Below, piece after piece: positions 1 through 5,866 of a stretch of DNA of 5,866 nucleotides (its first letter is position 1; every line of letters begins with the position of its first letter). Below the pieces are notes generated by a model. That model had not been told where the DNA came from and ran no database searches. It was given only the letters and a program-made list of their open reading frames with translations. The translations under genes and the position numbers were made by a program. Origin of the DNA: Anaerolineae bacterium (GTDB lineage Bacteria > Chloroflexota > Anaerolineae > 4572-78 > J111); contig JAGRCC010000318.1 of the NCBI GenBank assembly GCA_020433785.1, positions 1 to 5,866 on the forward strand, given 5' to 3'.

Positions 1-1579
1 CGCCAATCAGCACAGCCTGGGCCAGCGCCGCCGTCGGGTGAGCCCCGTTAATCGCGGCGATAGCGGCCGGATAAGCGACCGCCGTCGCCAGCGCCGTGCC
101 TTTTGGACCGTAAGCGGTAGACCAGATGCGGTCATGGCTGTGGCCATGATGATCATGATCATGACCGTGATCATGATCGTGATGGTCATGGTCGTGATGA
201 TGGTGGTGATGATGCTCGTGGTCATCGTGGTGATGATGCTCATGGTTGTGATCATGATGGTGATCGTGTTCATGCTCATGGTCGTGGTCATCGTGGTGGT
301 GATGCTCATGTTCGTGATCATGGTCGTGGTCATGGTGATGATGATGCTCGTGCTCGTGATCATGATGGTGATCATGGCCATGATCGTGAGCCGGCGGGTC
401 GCCCGACTGCTCCCATAATGGCAGCCCGGTCAGACCGGCGGCAGCCACACCAACGCCCAATAACTTCAAGGCATCGGGAATCGGCAGAAGATCGGCGGCC
501 AGGCCAGCGGCGCCGGCGGCGCTCAGACCGGCGCCGGCTAAGGCGGCAATGTCGCGCTCCGGCCGGTATACGGTCAAATCCAACGCCCCGACCGACCCGG
601 AGATAAACCCGGCCCGGCGCAGAGCGTTTGACAAGGTGCGGATATAAGTGATCGACTCAAGGGGATCGGCGGCGTGAATGACTCGAAAGAAACGAACCGA
701 ACAGAGTCGGATGCCGGCTTCGGTGGCCAGATTAGCCCAGCGATCGGAGATGGTAACCCAATCTTCCTCCAGCAGTTCGGCCGGCTCAAATTCATGGGCT
801 AACACCACCAGGCCATCGACGGTCAGGTTTTTGGCTACAAACCAGTCGCCGCGTTGGTGACGGCTGAGGTTAAAGTAGGCGTAGGTCAGCCCGTTGCGAC
901 GCAGCGCCTCAACGGTGTGCTGAATGTTGAACTCAAAGCCGGGGGTCATGTTCCCTTGCACGGCGATCAATTTGGCTCCTAAAGCCGCAGCTTGATCGAG
1001 CGTCCGATCAATCATTTCGGGCTGGACCCAACTGAAGCCTACCGGTCGAGGCACAGGGGCCAGACCCACGCGACCCGCTAAATCGAAGTGAGTAGGGTTA
1101 AACCCCAGGCTGACTTCGGCCACGGCCGGTAGATCGCCCACGAAGGAGATAAGCGGTTTTTCAGCAGCGGTTAGTTGAGCCTGTAACTGCGGCAGCCGGG
1201 CTTGCAGTTCGGTGGTTACCCGTTCGGCCAGTTGCGACGTTTGGGCTTGCAAATAGACCCGGCCGGGGTCGCTGCCCTGGGTGACGCTCAGTTCGCCTCG
1301 GGCCAGCAGCCGCTCAAGAGTGAGTTCCGGAATGGAAAGATGAGTCGCCCCGCTCTCTTTGTACATGAGGAGTAAGGTTTCCACCGGACTGCCGCTGCCA
1401 TTGGCCTGATCGGCTAGAGCGGCGGCGCGAGTTGCCACTGCCTGGACATCATCCCAATCCAGCATGATGGCGGTAATGACATTATTTTCTTCCCACTGCC
1501 ATCGTTTGAGGATCGCTTTGGCTGAAGCTAAGGCTCCGGCCGTCATTAGACTATATGAAATCAGGCGATGTAGTTGCAA
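1..1579 (-). CDS. DUF5693-like membrane protein with an 85-residue His/Asp-rich loop, 3' end beyond the left edge
   Basis: The frame is open without a stop from 1690 to the left edge; 526 residues are visible from the chosen TTG start. Domains: a probable N-terminal membrane anchor (about residues 6-24, followed by KR), then a soluble domain (about 33-340) with the order I associate with DUF5693. That order is a MLDWDDV strand near 39-45, VSLGFNP near 156-162, GLAPVPRP at 172-179, and an IAVQGN...PGFEFNIQHTVEALRR stretch near 205-228. Two Ala/Leu/Gly-rich helices follow (about 345-365 and 368-388), then the His-rich block 398-482, then the start of a further helix (about 493-510) before the sequence ends. 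The biochemical role of DUF5693 is unknown to me; in other bacteria I recall it beside csaB, a polysaccharide pyruvyltransferase, which would fit the glycosyltransferases here. LarC, another protein with a His-rich stretch, was considered, but the flanking sequence does not resemble it. The gene lies 127 bp downstream of the GT-C gene, on the same strand. Family assignment is by motif memory, not a search. Confidence 0.75.
   Translation of the reverse strand, partial: MQLHRLISYSLMTAGALASAKAILKRWQWEENNVITAIMLDWDDVQAVATRAAALADQANGSGSPVETLLLMYKESGATHLSIPELTLERLLARGELSVTQGSDPGRVYLQAQTSQLAERVTTELQARLPQLQAQLTAAEKPLISFVGDLPAVAEVSLGFNPTHFDLAGRVGLAPVPRPVGFSWVQPEMIDRTLDQAAALGAKLIAVQGNMTPGFEFNIQHTVEALRRNGLTYAYFNLSRHQRGDWFVAKNLTVDGLVVLAHEFEPAELLEEDWVTISDRWANLATEAGIRLCSVRFFRVIHAADPLESITYIRTLSNALRRAGFISGSVGALDLTVYRPERDIAALAGAGLSAAGAAGLAADLLPIPDALKLLGVGVAAAGLTGLPLWEQSGDPPAHDHGHDHHHDHEHEHHHHHDHDHDHEHEHHHHDDHDHEHEHDHHHDHNHEHHHHDDHEHHHHHHHDHDHHDHDHGHDHDHHGHSHDRIWSTAYGPKGTALATAVAYPAAIAAINGAHPTAALAQAVLIG
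134..388 (-). repeat. Low-complexity tract encoding an 85-residue His/Asp/Glu block
   Basis: In the gene's frame, 85 consecutive codons encode 53 His, 19 Asp, 8 Glu, 3 Gly, 1 Asn and 1 Ser, with no other residue type. His alternates with single acidic residues or runs in blocks of three to seven (for example HHHHDDH twice). Both His codons, CAT and CAC, are mixed, so it is not a simple trinucleotide microsatellite. The block sits between two hydrophobic hairpins of the DUF5693-like protein. If the N-terminal anchor is in-to-out and two helices follow the soluble domain, the block lies on the extracytoplasmic side. Such composition is known from Zn, Ni and Co transporters and chaperones, so divalent metal binding is the natural inference. 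Confidence 0.95.
217..322. repeat. 66-bp-offset imperfect direct repeat inside the His-rich tract
   Basis: Bases 217-256 and 283-322 match over 40 positions with three mismatches (233/299, 245/311, 247/313). The inner 28 bases (217-244 against 283-310) differ at one position only. The offset of 66 bp equals 22 codons, so the duplication keeps the reading frame and duplicates the HHHHDDH peptide. Similarity becomes patchy outside this segment. Confidence 0.8.
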
Positions 1580-1590
1580 ATTTGTACCTC
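1577..1590 (-). promoter_or_regulatory. Ribosome binding site and TTG start of the DUF5693-like gene
   Basis: On the minus strand GAGG (1590-1587) is followed by a 7-nt spacer and TTG (1579-1577). The first in-frame ATG (1546-1544) has only an A/T-rich leader without a purine-rich site. Starting there would also remove the first residues of the hydrophobic anchor (LISYSLMTAGALASAKAIL), which is preceded by His-Arg and followed by Lys-Arg. The TTG start is therefore preferred. This rests on spacing and topology only. Confidence 0.6.
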
Positions 1591-1706
1591 GATAGCATTT
1601 ATTCAAAGGTGACTGGCACTTAATCGTTGTAATCGCAAGGTTGTATTGCCTGCAAAGTTCTCGATTTTTACAAAAGTGCCAGTCACCTGATTAGTTACCG
1701 TCAATG
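1580..1706. other. Intergenic gap between the GT-C-like gene and the DUF5693-like gene
   Basis: This 127-bp gap is more A/T-rich than the flanking genes and is largely filled by the inverted-repeat element at 1607-1688. A TTGACG hexamer reads on the minus strand at 1704-1699, just after the stop codon, but no acceptable -10 lies 16-18 bp downstream. No convincing promoter or U-tract terminator was found, so whether the DUF5693-like gene is read from the upstream operon or has its own promoter stays open. Confidence 0.6.
1607..1688. repeat. 82-bp element bounded by a perfect 15-bp inverted repeat (REP pair/BIME-like or MITE-like)
   Basis: AGGTGACTGGCACTT at 1607-1621 is the exact reverse complement of AAGTGCCAGTCACCT at 1674-1688, with 52 bp between. 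Each arm is itself an imperfect palindrome (AGGTG, 5-nt loop, CACTT, with one G-U pair). That is the layout of two REP sequences in opposite orientation, as mobilised by REP-associated tyrosine transposases (TnpA_REP/RAYT). No clear target-site duplication and no transposase are visible. As RNA it could form a long hairpin, but the large loop and the short T run (TTT) after it on the minus strand make it a poor intrinsic terminator. Confidence 0.7.
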
Positions 1707-4103
1707 TTACGAATTCATTTTGGTGATAGTCACCTGGTCAACGGCTAACGGGGCTAACCCCAGGTAGTAGACCTCAAAGCTAAGCGCCTGTCGGCGGGGG
1801 TTGTCGATGGTTAGGGTAAAATTCTGATACTGATTGGGTTGGGAGAAGGCCTGAGCTGGCAGTGATTGAGTGACTAATTCTTCAAAGTTAGCCGTAGCAG
1901 CAACCTGGAGTCGAGCTACCGGTTCAGTCGTATCGACCGGCTGCGACAGTTTTAGACGAAAGGTCACTTGATAGTGGCCGGCATCGTAGATGTCAAAGGG
2001 GCCATAAATGGCTTTCTGGGGCGGATCGACGGCCGGATCGACCAGCCAGGCCCGGTGATCCAGGGCAGCCGCATCAGTAATGGGCTGGCCGACAAAATGC
2101 TGGAAGCCAGCGACATCATAGGTATGGCTGCTAAGATGTTGCTGCCAGCTTAGATACCCGATCGCCGCTACCGGTATCGTCAAGGCCGCCGCCCACAGAA
2201 AGGGAATAGGCACCGCCACCGGCCAGGCTGGAGGGGCTGACCGGGATGATCGCTCTCGGCCGGATCGATACCACAGCCAGACGGCGCTTGCTACTATAAA
2301 CGCGAGGTAAAAATATGGCAAAATCCAGGCATAGAGTGGGTCGGGCGTAATGCGGATAGCTTGGGCTCGAAGATCACCCTGCCCGGTGGCGGTGGCCTGC
2401 AAAACCATCGCTGTTCGCCAGCGGTCGGGGTTGGGGTTAAAAAACGATTCGTCAACAAGCCCGAAGCGACCATCGGCCGGCAGGTCGGCGGCGGTGATAG
2501 TTTTATAAAATACCTGCCCGCCGCCTAGATGTTTGATCGACAGGCGTAGGAGTTCGGTTTCAGGCGGCAGCCCCGGTGCGACTTGAACGGGCCAGCGCAG
2601 CCGGTAATGGCCAAAGGATAAGGCTTCCAACGGCGTCGCGGCGATGAGCGGGGTCGATTGACCGCCGGAGGCAATCCACAGGGATTCGCCATCTTGTTGA
2701 ATTACCTGACCGGCTGGGTCGTTGGCTAAGTTTGGGGCGATAGTTTCATAATCGCCCAAGTTGGGCAGCCAGTCGGTCAGCGGTAGGTGGAACAGGGTGC
2801 TGTAGAAGATCGGCAGGGATGATTTGTAGGGTAGTTCCGGCTGGCGCAGAATGACGATGCCGTTGATCACGCTAACAGCGCCCAGCAAAATCGTCAGGCT
2901 CACGAACAGCATCGAATGGCGGTAGGTTCGCCAGGCCAAAGCCAGCAGGGGAGCCAGCGCCGGCAGGGCCACAACCAGAAAACGCGGGCCAACTTCCCAG
3001 GCGATCCAGAAACCGCCGGCGGCGGCCGTTAACCCTAGCGACAAGATAAAAGGCACTAGCAGCAGCCAATTGCGGCTGCGCCAGAAAGCACGCCCCAGCA
3101 CGGGCAAGCTCCAGACTCCCAAAATATAAATGGGCGCCAAAATAAACAGGCCGCGCTGCTGATCGACCAACCAACCAATGCCCCGGGTTAATCGAGTCCA
3201 GAGCAGCACCCCCGTGGCCGGGATAGCAATATCCACTCGGGCCGGCGCGCTCAAGTGGCTGTTTACCCACCACAGCAGCCCGATTGAAAGGCAAGTCAAC
3301 CCAACAGCCAACAGGCCCAGTTTTAGGTTTTTGAATAGGGTAAACAACCGGTTAGTCCCGGTTAGCGGCCCCGACCAGTAAGACCAGCACGTTAGCAAGG
3401 CCAGCACCAGCGCCAGAGGAATAAACCGCCGATTAAGCCAGGGCAGTATGATGAGCGACGCCACCAGAATCGCCGCTCCAAAGCCGGTCGGTTTGGGGGT
3501 AATGATAAAATACAGACTGATCGTGACCAGCAGCGCCGCAATGAGTTCCGGGTAAACCAGATAAGGATAGAAGAGTAACGGCGGGCTAAAAAAAACAAAA
3601 AGCGTCCCGATGAGGGCCGCTCCTATATCTTCACTAACCGACCAGGCCAGCTTAAAGGTTATCACCGCCAGCAAACCGGCGAGCATCGCCTGAAAGGCCA
3701 ATACTCCAAAACGCCCACCCAGCGCATAGGCCGGAGCAATCAGTACCGGCAGGCCGAGATAATGGTCAAGAATTTCAGCGCCGGCCGAATCGTATCGAAC
3801 CTGGCGGGCAATATCTTTGCTAAAGTAAAAGTCCAGATAGTCAAACTGATCGTAGTTATTCCTAAGATCAAAATCGCCATCGTGAACTAGGGAATGGGCA
3901 GTCAGCAGATAGTGAGGCTCATCACCGGTGGTGCGCCAGGTCCGGACCAGGTAGGGTAGCAGAACGAGATAAACGGCCGAAACACACACCCCAACCAACG
4001 CCAGCCACACAACATCGTGGGACTTGGTTTGCAGGCGGCTATGTCGACTAACAACGGAAATCCCGCGAATAGCTGGGGCGGATTTGGTCGCTTCAAGTTC
4101 CAT
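1707..4103 (-). CDS. GT-C-like polytopic membrane glycosyltransferase with two extracytoplasmic beta-sandwich modules
   Basis: The protein has 798 residues. A basic N-terminus is followed by TM1 (about 31-53), then a first outer loop carrying GDEPHY (60-65). An Asp-Glu pair in this place is the catalytic signature of GT-C enzymes of the ArnT/PMT type, which use polyprenyl-phosphate sugars. About ten more hydrophobic segments run to residue 419, including RGLFILAPIYIL (317-328) and EVGPRFLVVALPALAPL (370-386), patterns I associate with bacterial GT-C-like membrane proteins. Residues about 440-588 form a soluble module; two further helices follow (about 590-612 and 629-651), then a second soluble module (about 660-798). 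Both modules look beta-rich with a similar core (FGHYRLRWPVQV near 498-508, AGHYQVTFRLKL near 708-719). The ATG lies inside the end of the GT2 gene with an 11-nt overlap and no strong Shine-Dalgarno, which implies translational coupling. The sugar and acceptor cannot be told. It could instead be a non-catalytic GT-C relative. Confidence 0.75.
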   Translation of the reverse strand: MELEATKSAPAIRGISVVSRHSRLQTKSHDVVWLALVGVCVSAVYLVLLPYLVRTWRTTGDEPHYLLTAHSLVHDGDFDLRNNYDQFDYLDFYFSKDIARQVRYDSAGAEILDHYLGLPVLIAPAYALGGRFGVLAFQAMLAGLLAVITFKLAWSVSEDIGAALIGTLFVFFSPPLLFYPYLVYPELIAALLVTISLYFIITPKPTGFGAAILVASLIILPWLNRRFIPLALVLALLTCWSYWSGPLTGTNRLFTLFKNLKLGLLAVGLTCLSIGLLWWVNSHLSAPARVDIAIPATGVLLWTRLTRGIGWLVDQQRGLFILAPIYILGVWSLPVLGRAFWRSRNWLLLVPFILSLGLTAAAGGFWIAWEVGPRFLVVALPALAPLLALAWRTYRHSMLFVSLTILLGAVSVINGIVILRQPELPYKSSLPIFYSTLFHLPLTDWLPNLGDYETIAPNLANDPAGQVIQQDGESLWIASGGQSTPLIAATPLEALSFGHYRLRWPVQVAPGLPPETELLRLSIKHLGGGQVFYKTITAADLPADGRFGLVDESFFNPNPDRWRTAMVLQATATGQGDLRAQAIRITPDPLYAWILPYFYLAFIVASAVWLWYRSGRERSSRSAPPAWPVAVPIPFLWAAALTIPVAAIGYLSWQQHLSSHTYDVAGFQHFVGQPITDAAALDHRAWLVDPAVDPPQKAIYGPFDIYDAGHYQVTFRLKLSQPVDTTEPVARLQVAATANFEELVTQSLPAQAFSQPNQYQNFTLTIDNPRRQALSFEVYYLGLAPLAVDQVTITKMNS
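1728..1736. repeat. Extra copy of the inverted-repeat core at the 3' end of the GT-C-like gene
   Basis: AGTCACCTG occurs at 1681-1689, in and just past the right arm of the inverted repeat, and again at 1728-1736. The second copy forms part of a short palindrome (GGTGA-TAG-TCACC, 1722-1734) inside the last codons of the GT-C-like gene (DQVTITKMNS). It is a short match and may be chance. Confidence 0.35.
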
Positions 4104-5178
4104 ACCGGTTATAAGTTAATTCCCTCTCTGTTTCTCGCGGATCAATTAAAGGAGGAGGTGATCGAAGCGGCTCGGCGAAAAAATTAGCCAGCCAGTGCAG
4201 CAGCAATCCGCAGCCAAATGAAATACCATTGTAAAAATAGTAAAGCCAATGGAGGGGGATGACCCCTATCATAAACATTAAGCCGCGTTTGTGGTAAAAG
4301 AAGCGATACAGATTGAGGTTAAGGAAAAAGAGGAGAATGGCCAAACCCAAGGCCACGTCAAGCGCTGTAAGGGAGAAAAAGCTGCTTAGCAAAGCCAAAA
4401 CCAGGGCATAAACCGCAATAACACTAATGCGGTTATGGGTTTGGAGGTTCAGGTCGCCCACAAAGGCTCTATCGCGCAGAATTAATCGCGTCCAGGGGAT
4501 GCCTCGATCAAAAATATCCGATTTAATCAGGTCGTTAAACCTCCAGGCTTTAAGGTGTTTGACCTGAACATTTTTAACCAGCCGAATTTTGCCGCCGGCC
4601 TGTTTGAGCCGATAGCCCAAATCAATGTCTTCAATTGAGGGTCGAGGGTAGCGTTGGACATCAAAGCCGCCCAGTTTCAAAAATCGATTGCGCTTGATCA
4701 CGCCGCAACCGGTCCAAAAAGTGGAGGCTTCCTCTTTACCATTTTGATGCACATAATGGTGAAACAGGTTTTTGTATTGAGCCACAAAGCCTCGCGCGTC
4801 CGGGGTATCGTCGTAAGAACCAAAGATAGCATCCAGCATCGGATGCTGCCTTAAAAAGGTCGCCGCCACAGCCAAAGTGTCAGCATGCACTTCGCAGTCG
4901 GCATCGATGAAAAATAGATAGCGCCCCTTAGCAATTTTAGCGCCAATGTTACGGGCGGCAGCCGGACCCAGCCGCTTCCCTGTAGCAAACAAGCGGGCCT
5001 TGAACTGCCGAGTTAGCCCATCTGATCCGTCGGTTGAACCATCATCAACTACAATCAATTCCCAATCGGTAAACGTTGATTGCTGGATGGCGCTGAGACA
5101 GCGCTCAAAGGCATAACCACCGTTGTACACGGGAATGATCACTGAAAAAAAAGGAGCTTGTTTCTTTCCGTTTCTCAT
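4093..5178 (-). CDS. Family 2 glycosyltransferase with C-terminal membrane helices
   Basis: The protein has 361 residues from the ATG. The GT-A fold is clear: FFSVIIPVYNGG (10-21), ELIVVDDGSTDG with Asp45-Asp46 for nucleotide binding, LGPAAARNIGA (70-80), and the metal-binding DAD at 92-94. TGCGVIKR (156-163) forms an acceptor-site loop, and SIEDIDLGYRL (181-191) supplies the catalytic Glu-Asp (183-184). Three to four hydrophobic segments follow (about 252-270, 272-292, 299-329), anchoring the enzyme to the inner face of the membrane, where it would use a nucleotide sugar and a membrane-bound acceptor. The ATG at 5178 starts 4 nt after the upstream stop and is preceded by a close AGGA. An in-frame TTG at 5193 would add five residues and overlap the previous gene by 11 nt, but has no ribosome site. 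The end overlaps the GT-C-like gene. The role is probably surface polysaccharide or glycolipid assembly; the substrate is unknown. Confidence 0.88.
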   Translation of the reverse strand: MRNGKKQAPFFSVIIPVYNGGYAFERCLSAIQQSTFTDWELIVVDDGSTDGSDGLTRQFKARLFATGKRLGPAAARNIGAKIAKGRYLFFIDADCEVHADTLAVAATFLRQHPMLDAIFGSYDDTPDARGFVAQYKNLFHHYVHQNGKEEASTFWTGCGVIKRNRFLKLGGFDVQRYPRPSIEDIDLGYRLKQAGGKIRLVKNVQVKHLKAWRFNDLIKSDIFDRGIPWTRLILRDRAFVGDLNLQTHNRISVIAVYALVLALLSSFFSLTALDVALGLAILLFFLNLNLYRFFYHKRGLMFMIGVIPLHWLYYFYNGISFGCGLLLHWLANFFAEPLRSPPPLIDPRETERELTYNRYGT

Positions 5179-5182
5179 GTTC

Positions 5183-5866
5183 CTAGACTTCAAATTTCAA
5201 TCGCTGCTTCAATAAGTTCATTGTATCGGTTTTATGAAATGTTAAAGCTGTTTGCCATACTTGCCACTTGGCGTTGAAAGAGCCGGCCCAGCGAGCCGCT
5301 TCTTTTCGATCTAAAATACCGCGTTGGAGACGCTGCTGGAGGGTAACCAACGGTGGATGCTGAGTTCGCTCAAGCAACCCCGCAGCATCCAGGGAGCGAA
5401 CATACCCCACCAAAGCCGGTGAGCAATCCTGCTCAAGAGCGGCCAGGGATGATTCCGGAATGGGTGCATTGTAAAGTGATTTGGCCCAATAAAATCCGGC
5501 ATACACAAATGGTTGAGCCTCGCTCTGACGGACTCGGTGCAGCAGTTCAGGCCACTTAATCTCTTCGGCCCACACCTGAAGAACTTGACCAATATCATAT
5601 AGTTGTAAAAACACCGAGCTGCCCATAATCACATGAAACGTCGCGTGAACGGCCAGGTGAATTAGCAAATCGGTCGTTGACAGCCGAAAGGCCGGTTGGT
5701 GGTTCAAGTCAATCGGCACGGCCCGGTCCCAAACGCCGGGGGTGATATCCACTTTGAGACCGAACCACGCTTCCTCCAAGGAAATGTGTGGCTCCACCAT
5801 CCGGTCGGCCTCGGTACTTAGAAACGGATTAGGGGTAGACCCTTCATTACCGGCCCGTCGATAGGT
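5183..5866 (-). CDS. Nucleotidyltransferase-family protein (NTP_transf_5/PF14907-like), 5' part beyond the right edge
   Basis: The frame is open to the right edge, giving 227 residues of C-terminal sequence. The ATG at 5800 is internal: 22 further codons continue upstream in frame (TYRRAGNEG... to ADR), so the real start is outside. The visible part resembles the second half of PF14907 proteins: a VE-H strand, an AVPI/PAFRLSTTDLLIHLAVHATFH helix with spaced histidines, then LYDIGQVLQVWAEEIKWPELLHRV, and an all-helical tail. The nucleotidyltransferase core with its metal-binding aspartates would be in the missing N-terminal part, so activity cannot be judged. Family members occur in exopolysaccharide and some peptide-modification clusters; their reaction is poorly defined. 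The stop codon lies 4 nt before the ATG of the GT2 gene, so the two are probably translated together. Confidence 0.6.
   Translation of the reverse strand, partial: TYRRAGNEGSTPNPFLSTEADRMVEPHISLEEAWFGLKVDITPGVWDRAVPIDLNHQPAFRLSTTDLLIHLAVHATFHVIMGSSVFLQLYDIGQVLQVWAEEIKWPELLHRVRQSEAQPFVYAGFYWAKSLYNAPIPESSLAALEQDCSPALVGYVRSLDAAGLLERTQHPPLVTLQQRLQRGILDRKEAARWAGSFNAKWQVWQTALTFHKTDTMNLLKQRLKFEV

Follow-up and report, generated by a model that had tools for sequence, protein, structure and literature searches.

The 5,866-nucleotide stretch of Anaerolineae bacterium contig JAGRCC010000318.1 analyzed here (hereinafter, the window) encodes a protein of the DUF5693 family (PF18949) that carries a long, histidine-dominated loop between its membrane segments and is encoded next to putative glycan enzymes. 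The reading that best accommodates the observations as a whole, and that we consider only slightly likelier to be right than wrong, is that this loop binds nickel and/or cobalt on the same membrane side as the barrel and serves as a metal antenna under scarcity, with the gene run belonging to the regulon of a Nur-like repressor. Histidine-rich loops as such are already known, and the one in cable-bacteria RcnA is equally large according to the available portion of the report (PMC11247825). What appears to be new is a conserved loop with two alternative insertion sites and, in three of the four clade genomes examined, the predicted membership of the gene run in a nickel/cobalt regulon. No paper naming DUF5693 or PF18949 was found in the literature searched.

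The DUF5693 protein, its loop and its relatives

The window is filled by four genes, all on the minus strand, encoding a nucleotidyltransferase (NTP_transf_5), a family 2 glycosyltransferase (GT2), a 798-residue putative glycosyltransferase and the DUF5693 protein (Table 1). The 798-residue protein has no Pfam match at E<=1 and matches the NCBIfam LA_3751/LA_3752 glycosyltransferase model at E=6.5e-8 (31.8 bits, under the cut-off of 200).

Table 1. Features of the window, with the basis of each assignment
Feature	Position	Strand	Basis
His/Asp/Glu-rich loop, 85 residues, 53 His, between TM3 and TM4	134..388	-	direct translation
DUF5693 (PF18949) gene, probable TTG start at 1579..1577, cut at the left window end	2..1579	-	Pfam; start via alignment with P0001
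Predicted TIM-like (beta/alpha) barrel domain with conserved Glu/His/Arg/Asp residues	590..1492	-	AlphaFold2, fold searches, conservation
Predicted TM2	488..550	-	hand transfer from the P0001 model via alignment
Predicted TM3	404..475	-	hand transfer from the P0001 model via alignment
Predicted TM4	56..112	-	hand transfer from the P0001 model via alignment
Putative glycosyltransferase, 798 aa, neighbor upstream of DUF5693	1707..4103	-	weak NCBIfam match
Family 2 glycosyltransferase (GT2)	4093..5193	-	PF00535, E=4.4e-28
NTP_transf_5 nucleotidyltransferase, cut at the right window end	5183..5866	-	PF14907, E=1.6e-15

The likeness to DUF5693 noticed in an earlier note on this DNA was borne out by a match to PF18949 well above the curated Pfam cut-off (E=6.3e-26; 91.5 bits against 29) that covers residues 62-395 and spans the barrel and the first hairpin. 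The relatives from genomes G001-G003 also match PF18949 at 364-501, past the insert, and the window protein ends earlier: it is read for 526 residues from the TTG to the left window end, compared with 725 residues in P0001, a homolog that is 94% identical over the searched region. The TTG is most likely the translation start because it aligns with Met1 of P0001 and is preceded by GAGG at 1590..1587. Asp/His stretches of the HxH type occur in zinc and nickel transporters and chaperones including ZIP, CDF, ZnuA/AdcA, HypB and UreE. The window protein differs from all of these in that PF18949 is its only Pfam family at E<=1, and the profile search that had been proposed thus placed the protein in DUF5693 and in no known family of metal transporters or chaperones: in the incomplete protein encoded in the window, ZIP, CDF, NicO and ZnuA domains are absent at this threshold. 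P0001 gave two chance-level matches to NCBIfam, and a Zip domain appears in the precomputed Pfam list for a single homolog, P0004.

The translated loop begins with HDHGHDHHHDHEHEH, ends with HGHSH and consists of 53 His, 19 Asp, 8 Glu, 3 Gly, 1 Asn and 1 Ser; the count of 53 histidines and 27 acidic residues given earlier is exact. In 200 base-shuffled windows, the richest 85-codon stretch in any frame contained at most 11 histidines (mean, 8.6). The underlying DNA is tandem-repeat-like, with the first and second codon positions almost invariant (CA/GA) and the third occupied by 34 C, 43 T, 6 G and 2 A; the choice between C and T at this position is orderless (38 runs against 36.0 expected, sd 4.1). 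Because the first two positions are nearly fixed and the third is unordered, it is the residues, rather than a DNA microsatellite, that look conserved, and the codon usage fits selection on the residues. Pooled over the 95 loops found among homologs, the composition is 57% His, 18% Asp and 5% Glu, without Cys, and histidine strongly tends to occupy every other residue (lag-2 z=+22, lag-1 z=-24). The label "metal-binding-type" that had been attached to the loop earlier is supported as a description of its kind, and the loop probably does bind metal. DNA coding for (HD)3H was seen at five places in 21 genomes, four of them within the DUF5693 genes of G001, G002 and G004 and the remaining one, the sole match outside DUF5693, at L067 10444-10464 (G006:C40).

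In the AlphaFold2 model of P0001, TM2 and TM3 precede the loop and TM4 and TM5 come after it, so that its placement between membrane hairpins, as originally proposed, is right on this model; the loop itself has pLDDT <50 and is predicted to be disordered. The barrel modeled alone reached a pLDDT of 88.5 and a pTM of 0.88 (the alignments for the first and the second model omitted 16 of 120 proteins and 5 of 34 barrel loci, respectively). Foldseek produced no match at E<=0.001 for the whole model and, for the barrel alone, 16 such matches, all to unrelated kinds of barrels; a PDB profile search yielded chance matches. A profile relation of the barrel to NodB-type polysaccharide deacetylases (CE4, PF01522), an idea prompted by a fold search, was rejected: hhalign against 19 PF01522-type proteins gave a probability of 0.4 and E of 0.14, and 30 barrels searched at E<=5 gave no match to PF01522.

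The distribution of the loop was traced in the results of two protein searches, in Chloroflexota loci and in the Pfam profile. DUF5693 proteins from outside Chloroflexota, for which a control search gave signals in Thermus composti, Deinobacterium chartae, Bacteroides ihuae and Thermotoga maritima, were left out. The search from the window protein, which scored the 7,996 candidates with the largest number of words in common, returned at least 121 relatives, of which 120 were listed; a further search, started from a relative lacking the loop and likewise limited to about 8,000 scored candidates and 120 listed proteins, raised the set to 231. After removal of 27 proteins shorter than 590 residues, and with six or more histidines between TM3 and TM4 taken as the criterion, a histidine-rich insert was present in 95 of the 204 near-full-length homologs; the other 109 have a short linker, of exactly 19 residues in 108 of them and 35 in one. 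Within the window's clade, every one of the 82 members carries the insert (9-52 His), as do 13 of the 122 other proteins (8-24 His). A tree built without the loop columns (FastTree, midpoint root) implies at least four changes in its history. The PF18949 profile lacks an insert at this site, and the match of the G001 protein to it breaks at 358 and resumes at 366. The loop is therefore routine in one clade and missing from the family profile. The novelty claimed in the earlier note thus held in part: given that all near-full-length members of the clade carry the loop, it is not unique to a single protein, and given its absence from the profile and from 109 of the 204 homologs, it is not a routine feature of DUF5693. 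The family itself is rare, scoring above the cut-off in 1 of 301 genomes drawn from the phylum, 14 of 396 from the class and 4 of 25 from the order (draws that include known carriers), and no relatives were found in plasmids or viral contigs.

A second insertion site, in the linker between the barrel and TM2, is used in P0119, L020, L023, L026/L037 and L041, where little separates TM3 from TM4. The two inserts never occur together in the 31 rows compared, several of which are identical. On a tree from which L024 and L026 had been dropped, the rows with the barrel-TM2 insert fall in two places, separate from those with the TM3-TM4 insert. Counting helices on the model places both insertion sites on the same membrane side as the barrel and as the TM7-TM8 loop, which contains a conserved HTHH. 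Clade-wide presence, absence from 109 homologs and the second site on the same membrane side together mark the loop as a selected, lineage-specific feature. In L024 and L035, neither insert is present and the TM7-TM8 loop contains one histidine, compared with three to five in the others; this joint loss may be informative.

A palindrome common to importer and DUF5693-run promoters

The connection with nickel and cobalt comes from promoters. When palindromes ahead of Fur-CbiM operons were compared with those ahead of DUF5693 runs, one in front of NTP_transf_5 in L004 was seen by eye to resemble that of L006 and L008. The common element, which stands before many CbiMQO operons, is a palindrome of the form TTGCAA-N4-TTGCAA (match string for the NTP_transf_5 promoter, ATTGCAAATATTTGCAAT) that in L001, L002 and L004 lies directly before the start of NTP_transf_5, the first gene of the DUF5693 run; in L004, its 14-base core ends 18 bases ahead of the probable ATG. 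When 844 kb were scanned for exact copies of TGCRAANNTTYGCA, the sole matches were in Fur-CbiM promoters (G005-G007) and in NTP_transf_5 promoters (L001 and L004); the L002 promoter contains this string with one mismatch. Nine matches with at most one mismatch were detected in 40 further stretches surrounding ZnuA, CbiM, NicO and cation-efflux genes, seven of them no more than 400 bases from the start of a CbiM or Fur gene and two near no ORF start.

A score matrix trained solely on nine CbiM/Fur-promoter sites reached 18.9 or more at 14 distinct sites in 1.29 Mb of partly overlapping loci, against 0.16 expected by chance. These comprise eight training sites, three held-out CbiM/Fur loci (G499, G013, G014) and the three NTP_transf_5 promoters, and no others. 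The NTP_transf_5 promoters score 23.3 in G001, 20.4 in G004 and 18.9 in G002, with chance probabilities per position ranging from 1e-9 to 6e-7 depending on score and GC. The palindrome thus precedes the DUF5693 run in three of the four clade genomes examined. The fourth, G003, which has the loop, shows no site at NTP_transf_5 (6.6) or CbiM (0.2), and all 11 clade II NTP_transf_5 promoters tested score below 9. Among 11 CbiM loci outside the training set, five score at least 15 within 800 bases and six score lower, including both G004 loci; CbiM of G004 has no strong site in this range (5.9), and a weak one (13.5) is located 65 bases ahead of the first gene of the CbiMQO operon. The top score inside the window, which stops before the promoter of its own run, is 6.6. 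Being homologous, the three NTP_transf_5 promoters count as a single lineage and not as three separate events, although their box columns are better conserved (11 of 14 identical) than the flanks (56 of 175). Another conserved stretch, AGCGCGCCTTT, was observed farther upstream than the box in L001, L002 and L004 and at the corresponding place in L003, which lacks the box.

Several similar elements were set aside: in L006-L008, the palindromes that directly precede DUF5693 form GC-rich hairpins and do not resemble the box, and one-mismatch sites within the FGE-sulfatase gene of L006-L008 as well as sites within the DUF5693 coding sequence scoring 17.5 (L016/L029) and 16.5 (L014/L032) were discounted as coding.

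The regulator that would act at these sites can be tentatively assigned by sequence similarity of the two CbiM-linked Fur proteins compared. For both, the best solved chain is 3EYY (3.1e-24 for the G005 protein, with the next chain at 3.2e-16; 1.7e-29 and 5.9e-22 for that of G004, encoded at L055:7005-7451), the Nur protein of S. coelicolor according to the accessible part of PMC7055735, where nickel-bound Nur is described as a repressor of nikABCDE. The Nur box is given as tTGCaa-N5-ttGCAA in the part of PMC3919588 available. The Streptomyces coelicolor regulon, so far as these sources describe it, resembles the one predicted here in the 3EYY-like regulator, the TTGCAA half-sites and an importer as target, and differs in the spacer (N5 there, N4 here), in the importer (NikABCDE there, CbiMQO here) and in that the targets named do not include a DUF5693/glycan gene run. 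Because the regulators match Nur best and the palindrome resembles the Nur box, nickel is favored; cobalt is possible given the CbiMQO-like importer. The literature searched contained no paper that treats CbiMQO, the Fur family and a regulon in Chloroflexi together.

Physical proximity points in the same direction. Of 21 genomes, four (G004-G007) have CbiM no more than 25 kb from DUF5693, compared with 0.17 expected, although these amount to about two events because G005-G007 are close kin; the corresponding figures are 1 of 21 against 0.11 for NicO and 1 of 21 (G004) against 0.33 for cation efflux. Fur, CbiM and CbiQ genes, identified with Pfam, adjoin L006 and L008 (the ABC ATPase was confirmed in L008), and in G006, CbiM was identified with Pfam and its neighbors were judged by eye. 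In G004, whose DUF5693 protein is 81% identical over the barrel, some 23 kb around the run (L055 1-20000) contain the Nur-like regulator, CbiMQO and a histidine-rich cation-efflux protein, and can be regarded as a putative nickel/cobalt island. A protein with weak similarity to DUF4198 and a 984-residue protein are encoded in the same stretch.

Possible function of the loop and alternative explanations

Under the preferred reading, the loop would be a disordered, selected, transition-metal-binding segment of a membrane-anchored barrel protein in the Anaerolineae envelope. The bound metal would most likely be Ni(II) and/or Co(II), held on the side of the membrane where the barrel lies, probably the non-cytoplasmic one, such that the loop would concentrate scarce metal near the cell surface. 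The run NTP_transf_5-GT2-putative glycosyltransferase-DUF5693, presumably a single transcript, would be controlled by a Nur-like repressor of the Fur family, as predicted for three of four clade genomes, and the same repressor would control the CbiMQO importer; given this common predicted regulon, the run and the importer would be made together upon metal limitation. The captured metal might be destined for the importer, for the barrel itself or for the loop with the conserved HTHH. As a counterpoint, the run also encodes putative glycan enzymes that have no need of a metal antenna. The palindrome in three of four clade genomes and the Nur-like character of two regulators lend independent, though indirect, support to the earlier guess that envelope work is coupled to metal supply.

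A more specific scenario, which we put forward tentatively and deem rather unlikely in its entirety, is a nickel/cobalt-starvation envelope system in which the Nur-like repressor co-induces CbiMQO and a surface-glycan run containing the histidine-loop DUF5693 protein, which would trap nickel or cobalt outside the cell and pass it towards the importer or its own barrel site. If correct, this would represent a new type of metal-capture module that operates without a classical substrate-binding protein, link metal supply in Chloroflexota with a gene run of glycan type, and widen Nur-like regulation past the targets named for Streptomyces in the sources available. In any case, the loop together with the importer-type palindrome provides a testable hypothesis of envelope metal capture under nickel or cobalt limitation.

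An unlikely but substantial alternative is that the loop binds or buffers zinc, or metals generally, at the cell surface, with no role specific to nickel or cobalt, the palindrome being the mark of a general metal-starvation regulon. Histidine/aspartate loops of such composition are common in zinc proteins, P0001 has a weak, composition-driven PDB match to zinc transporter 7 (E=0.16), and a weak palindrome (13.5) precedes ZnuA in G003 (L092 5930, G003:C40), a genome without a site at CbiM or the DUF5693 run. Against this explanation, the other 18 of 19 ZnuA genes score below 10, with no strong site in the whole control set; none of the nine near-matches lies at a ZnuA start; ZnuA is found within 25 kb of DUF5693 in 0 of 21 genomes (0.28 expected); and for both regulators the matches to Zur-labelled chains are much weaker than those to Nur. 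Of the candidates zinc, nickel and cobalt listed in the earlier note, the latter two have thus gained from the Nur-like regulators and the CbiMQO palindrome, whereas zinc appears less favored because strong sites are lacking at all 19 ZnuA genes.

The loop could instead be cytoplasmic and function in storage or detoxification of nickel and cobalt, as discussed for expanded RcnA loops; we consider this improbable. The loop of cable-bacteria RcnA, a predicted cytoplasmic segment of 100-123 residues with 33-53 histidines in the available portion of PMC11247825, resembles that of DUF5693 in its position between TM segments, size, histidine count and link to nickel, and in G001 (L001) a gene of the NicO/RcnA type, under the NCBIfam cut-off, is located about 11 kb from DUF5693. 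RcnA differs in being, as that source describes it, an exporter, and the window protein matches no NicO model. Evidence on the topology of DUF5693 is weak; the K+R density of 0.157 on the N-terminal side compared with 0.103 in the barrel-side loops weakly favors, by the positive-inside preference, an outside location of the barrel and the loop. Furthermore, if the Nur-like protein is a repressor, an importer-type operator would be unexpected for a storage or detoxification protein.

Two further explanations are highly improbable. A neutral, functionless low-complexity expansion would fit the repeat-like DNA and the wide variation of loop length and sequence, but not an insert shared by all 82 clade members, a choice of two sites on the same side of the membrane, free third codon positions and histidine at every other residue. 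Binding of a polyanionic glycan, or a pH-sensitive brush serving the adjacent glycan pathway, would suit the adjoining glycosyltransferases in the window and the flippase and nucleotidyltransferase in relatives, but loops with 23% acidic residues disfavor polyanions and the importer-type palindrome would be left unexplained.

Other features of the gene neighborhood

Among the 26 loci in the neighborhood table, two (L018, L024) are without a DUF5693 ORF found. In the other 24, genes of the NTP_transf_5 similarity cluster occur upstream of DUF5693 in 18 loci and those of an FGE-sulfatase cluster nearby in 16, the Pfam identity of both clusters having been confirmed just for L001 and L012. Two more clusters recur near DUF5693, one of flippases (8 loci) and one of B12-radical-SAM proteins (9 loci), both checked with Pfam in L001.

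A perfect 15-bp inverted repeat (window positions 1607-1621 and 1674-1688) precedes the DUF5693 start. Its arm, AAGTGCCAGTCACC, has 67 copies in G002 and 22 in G004 and none in G001 or G003, and is also found immediately before DUF5693 in L002 (9914-9956); judging by these copies, it is a dispersed REP/MITE-like element. The DUF5693 gene of G002 (L002 10001-12060) is split between two ORFs (334 and 394 codons) that overlap, through either a frameshift or an assembly error. Genes similar to HprK-related kinases (TIGR04352, far under the cut-off) were observed beside NTP_transf_5/DUF5693 loci, at L009 10667-11752 and L006 7048-8133.
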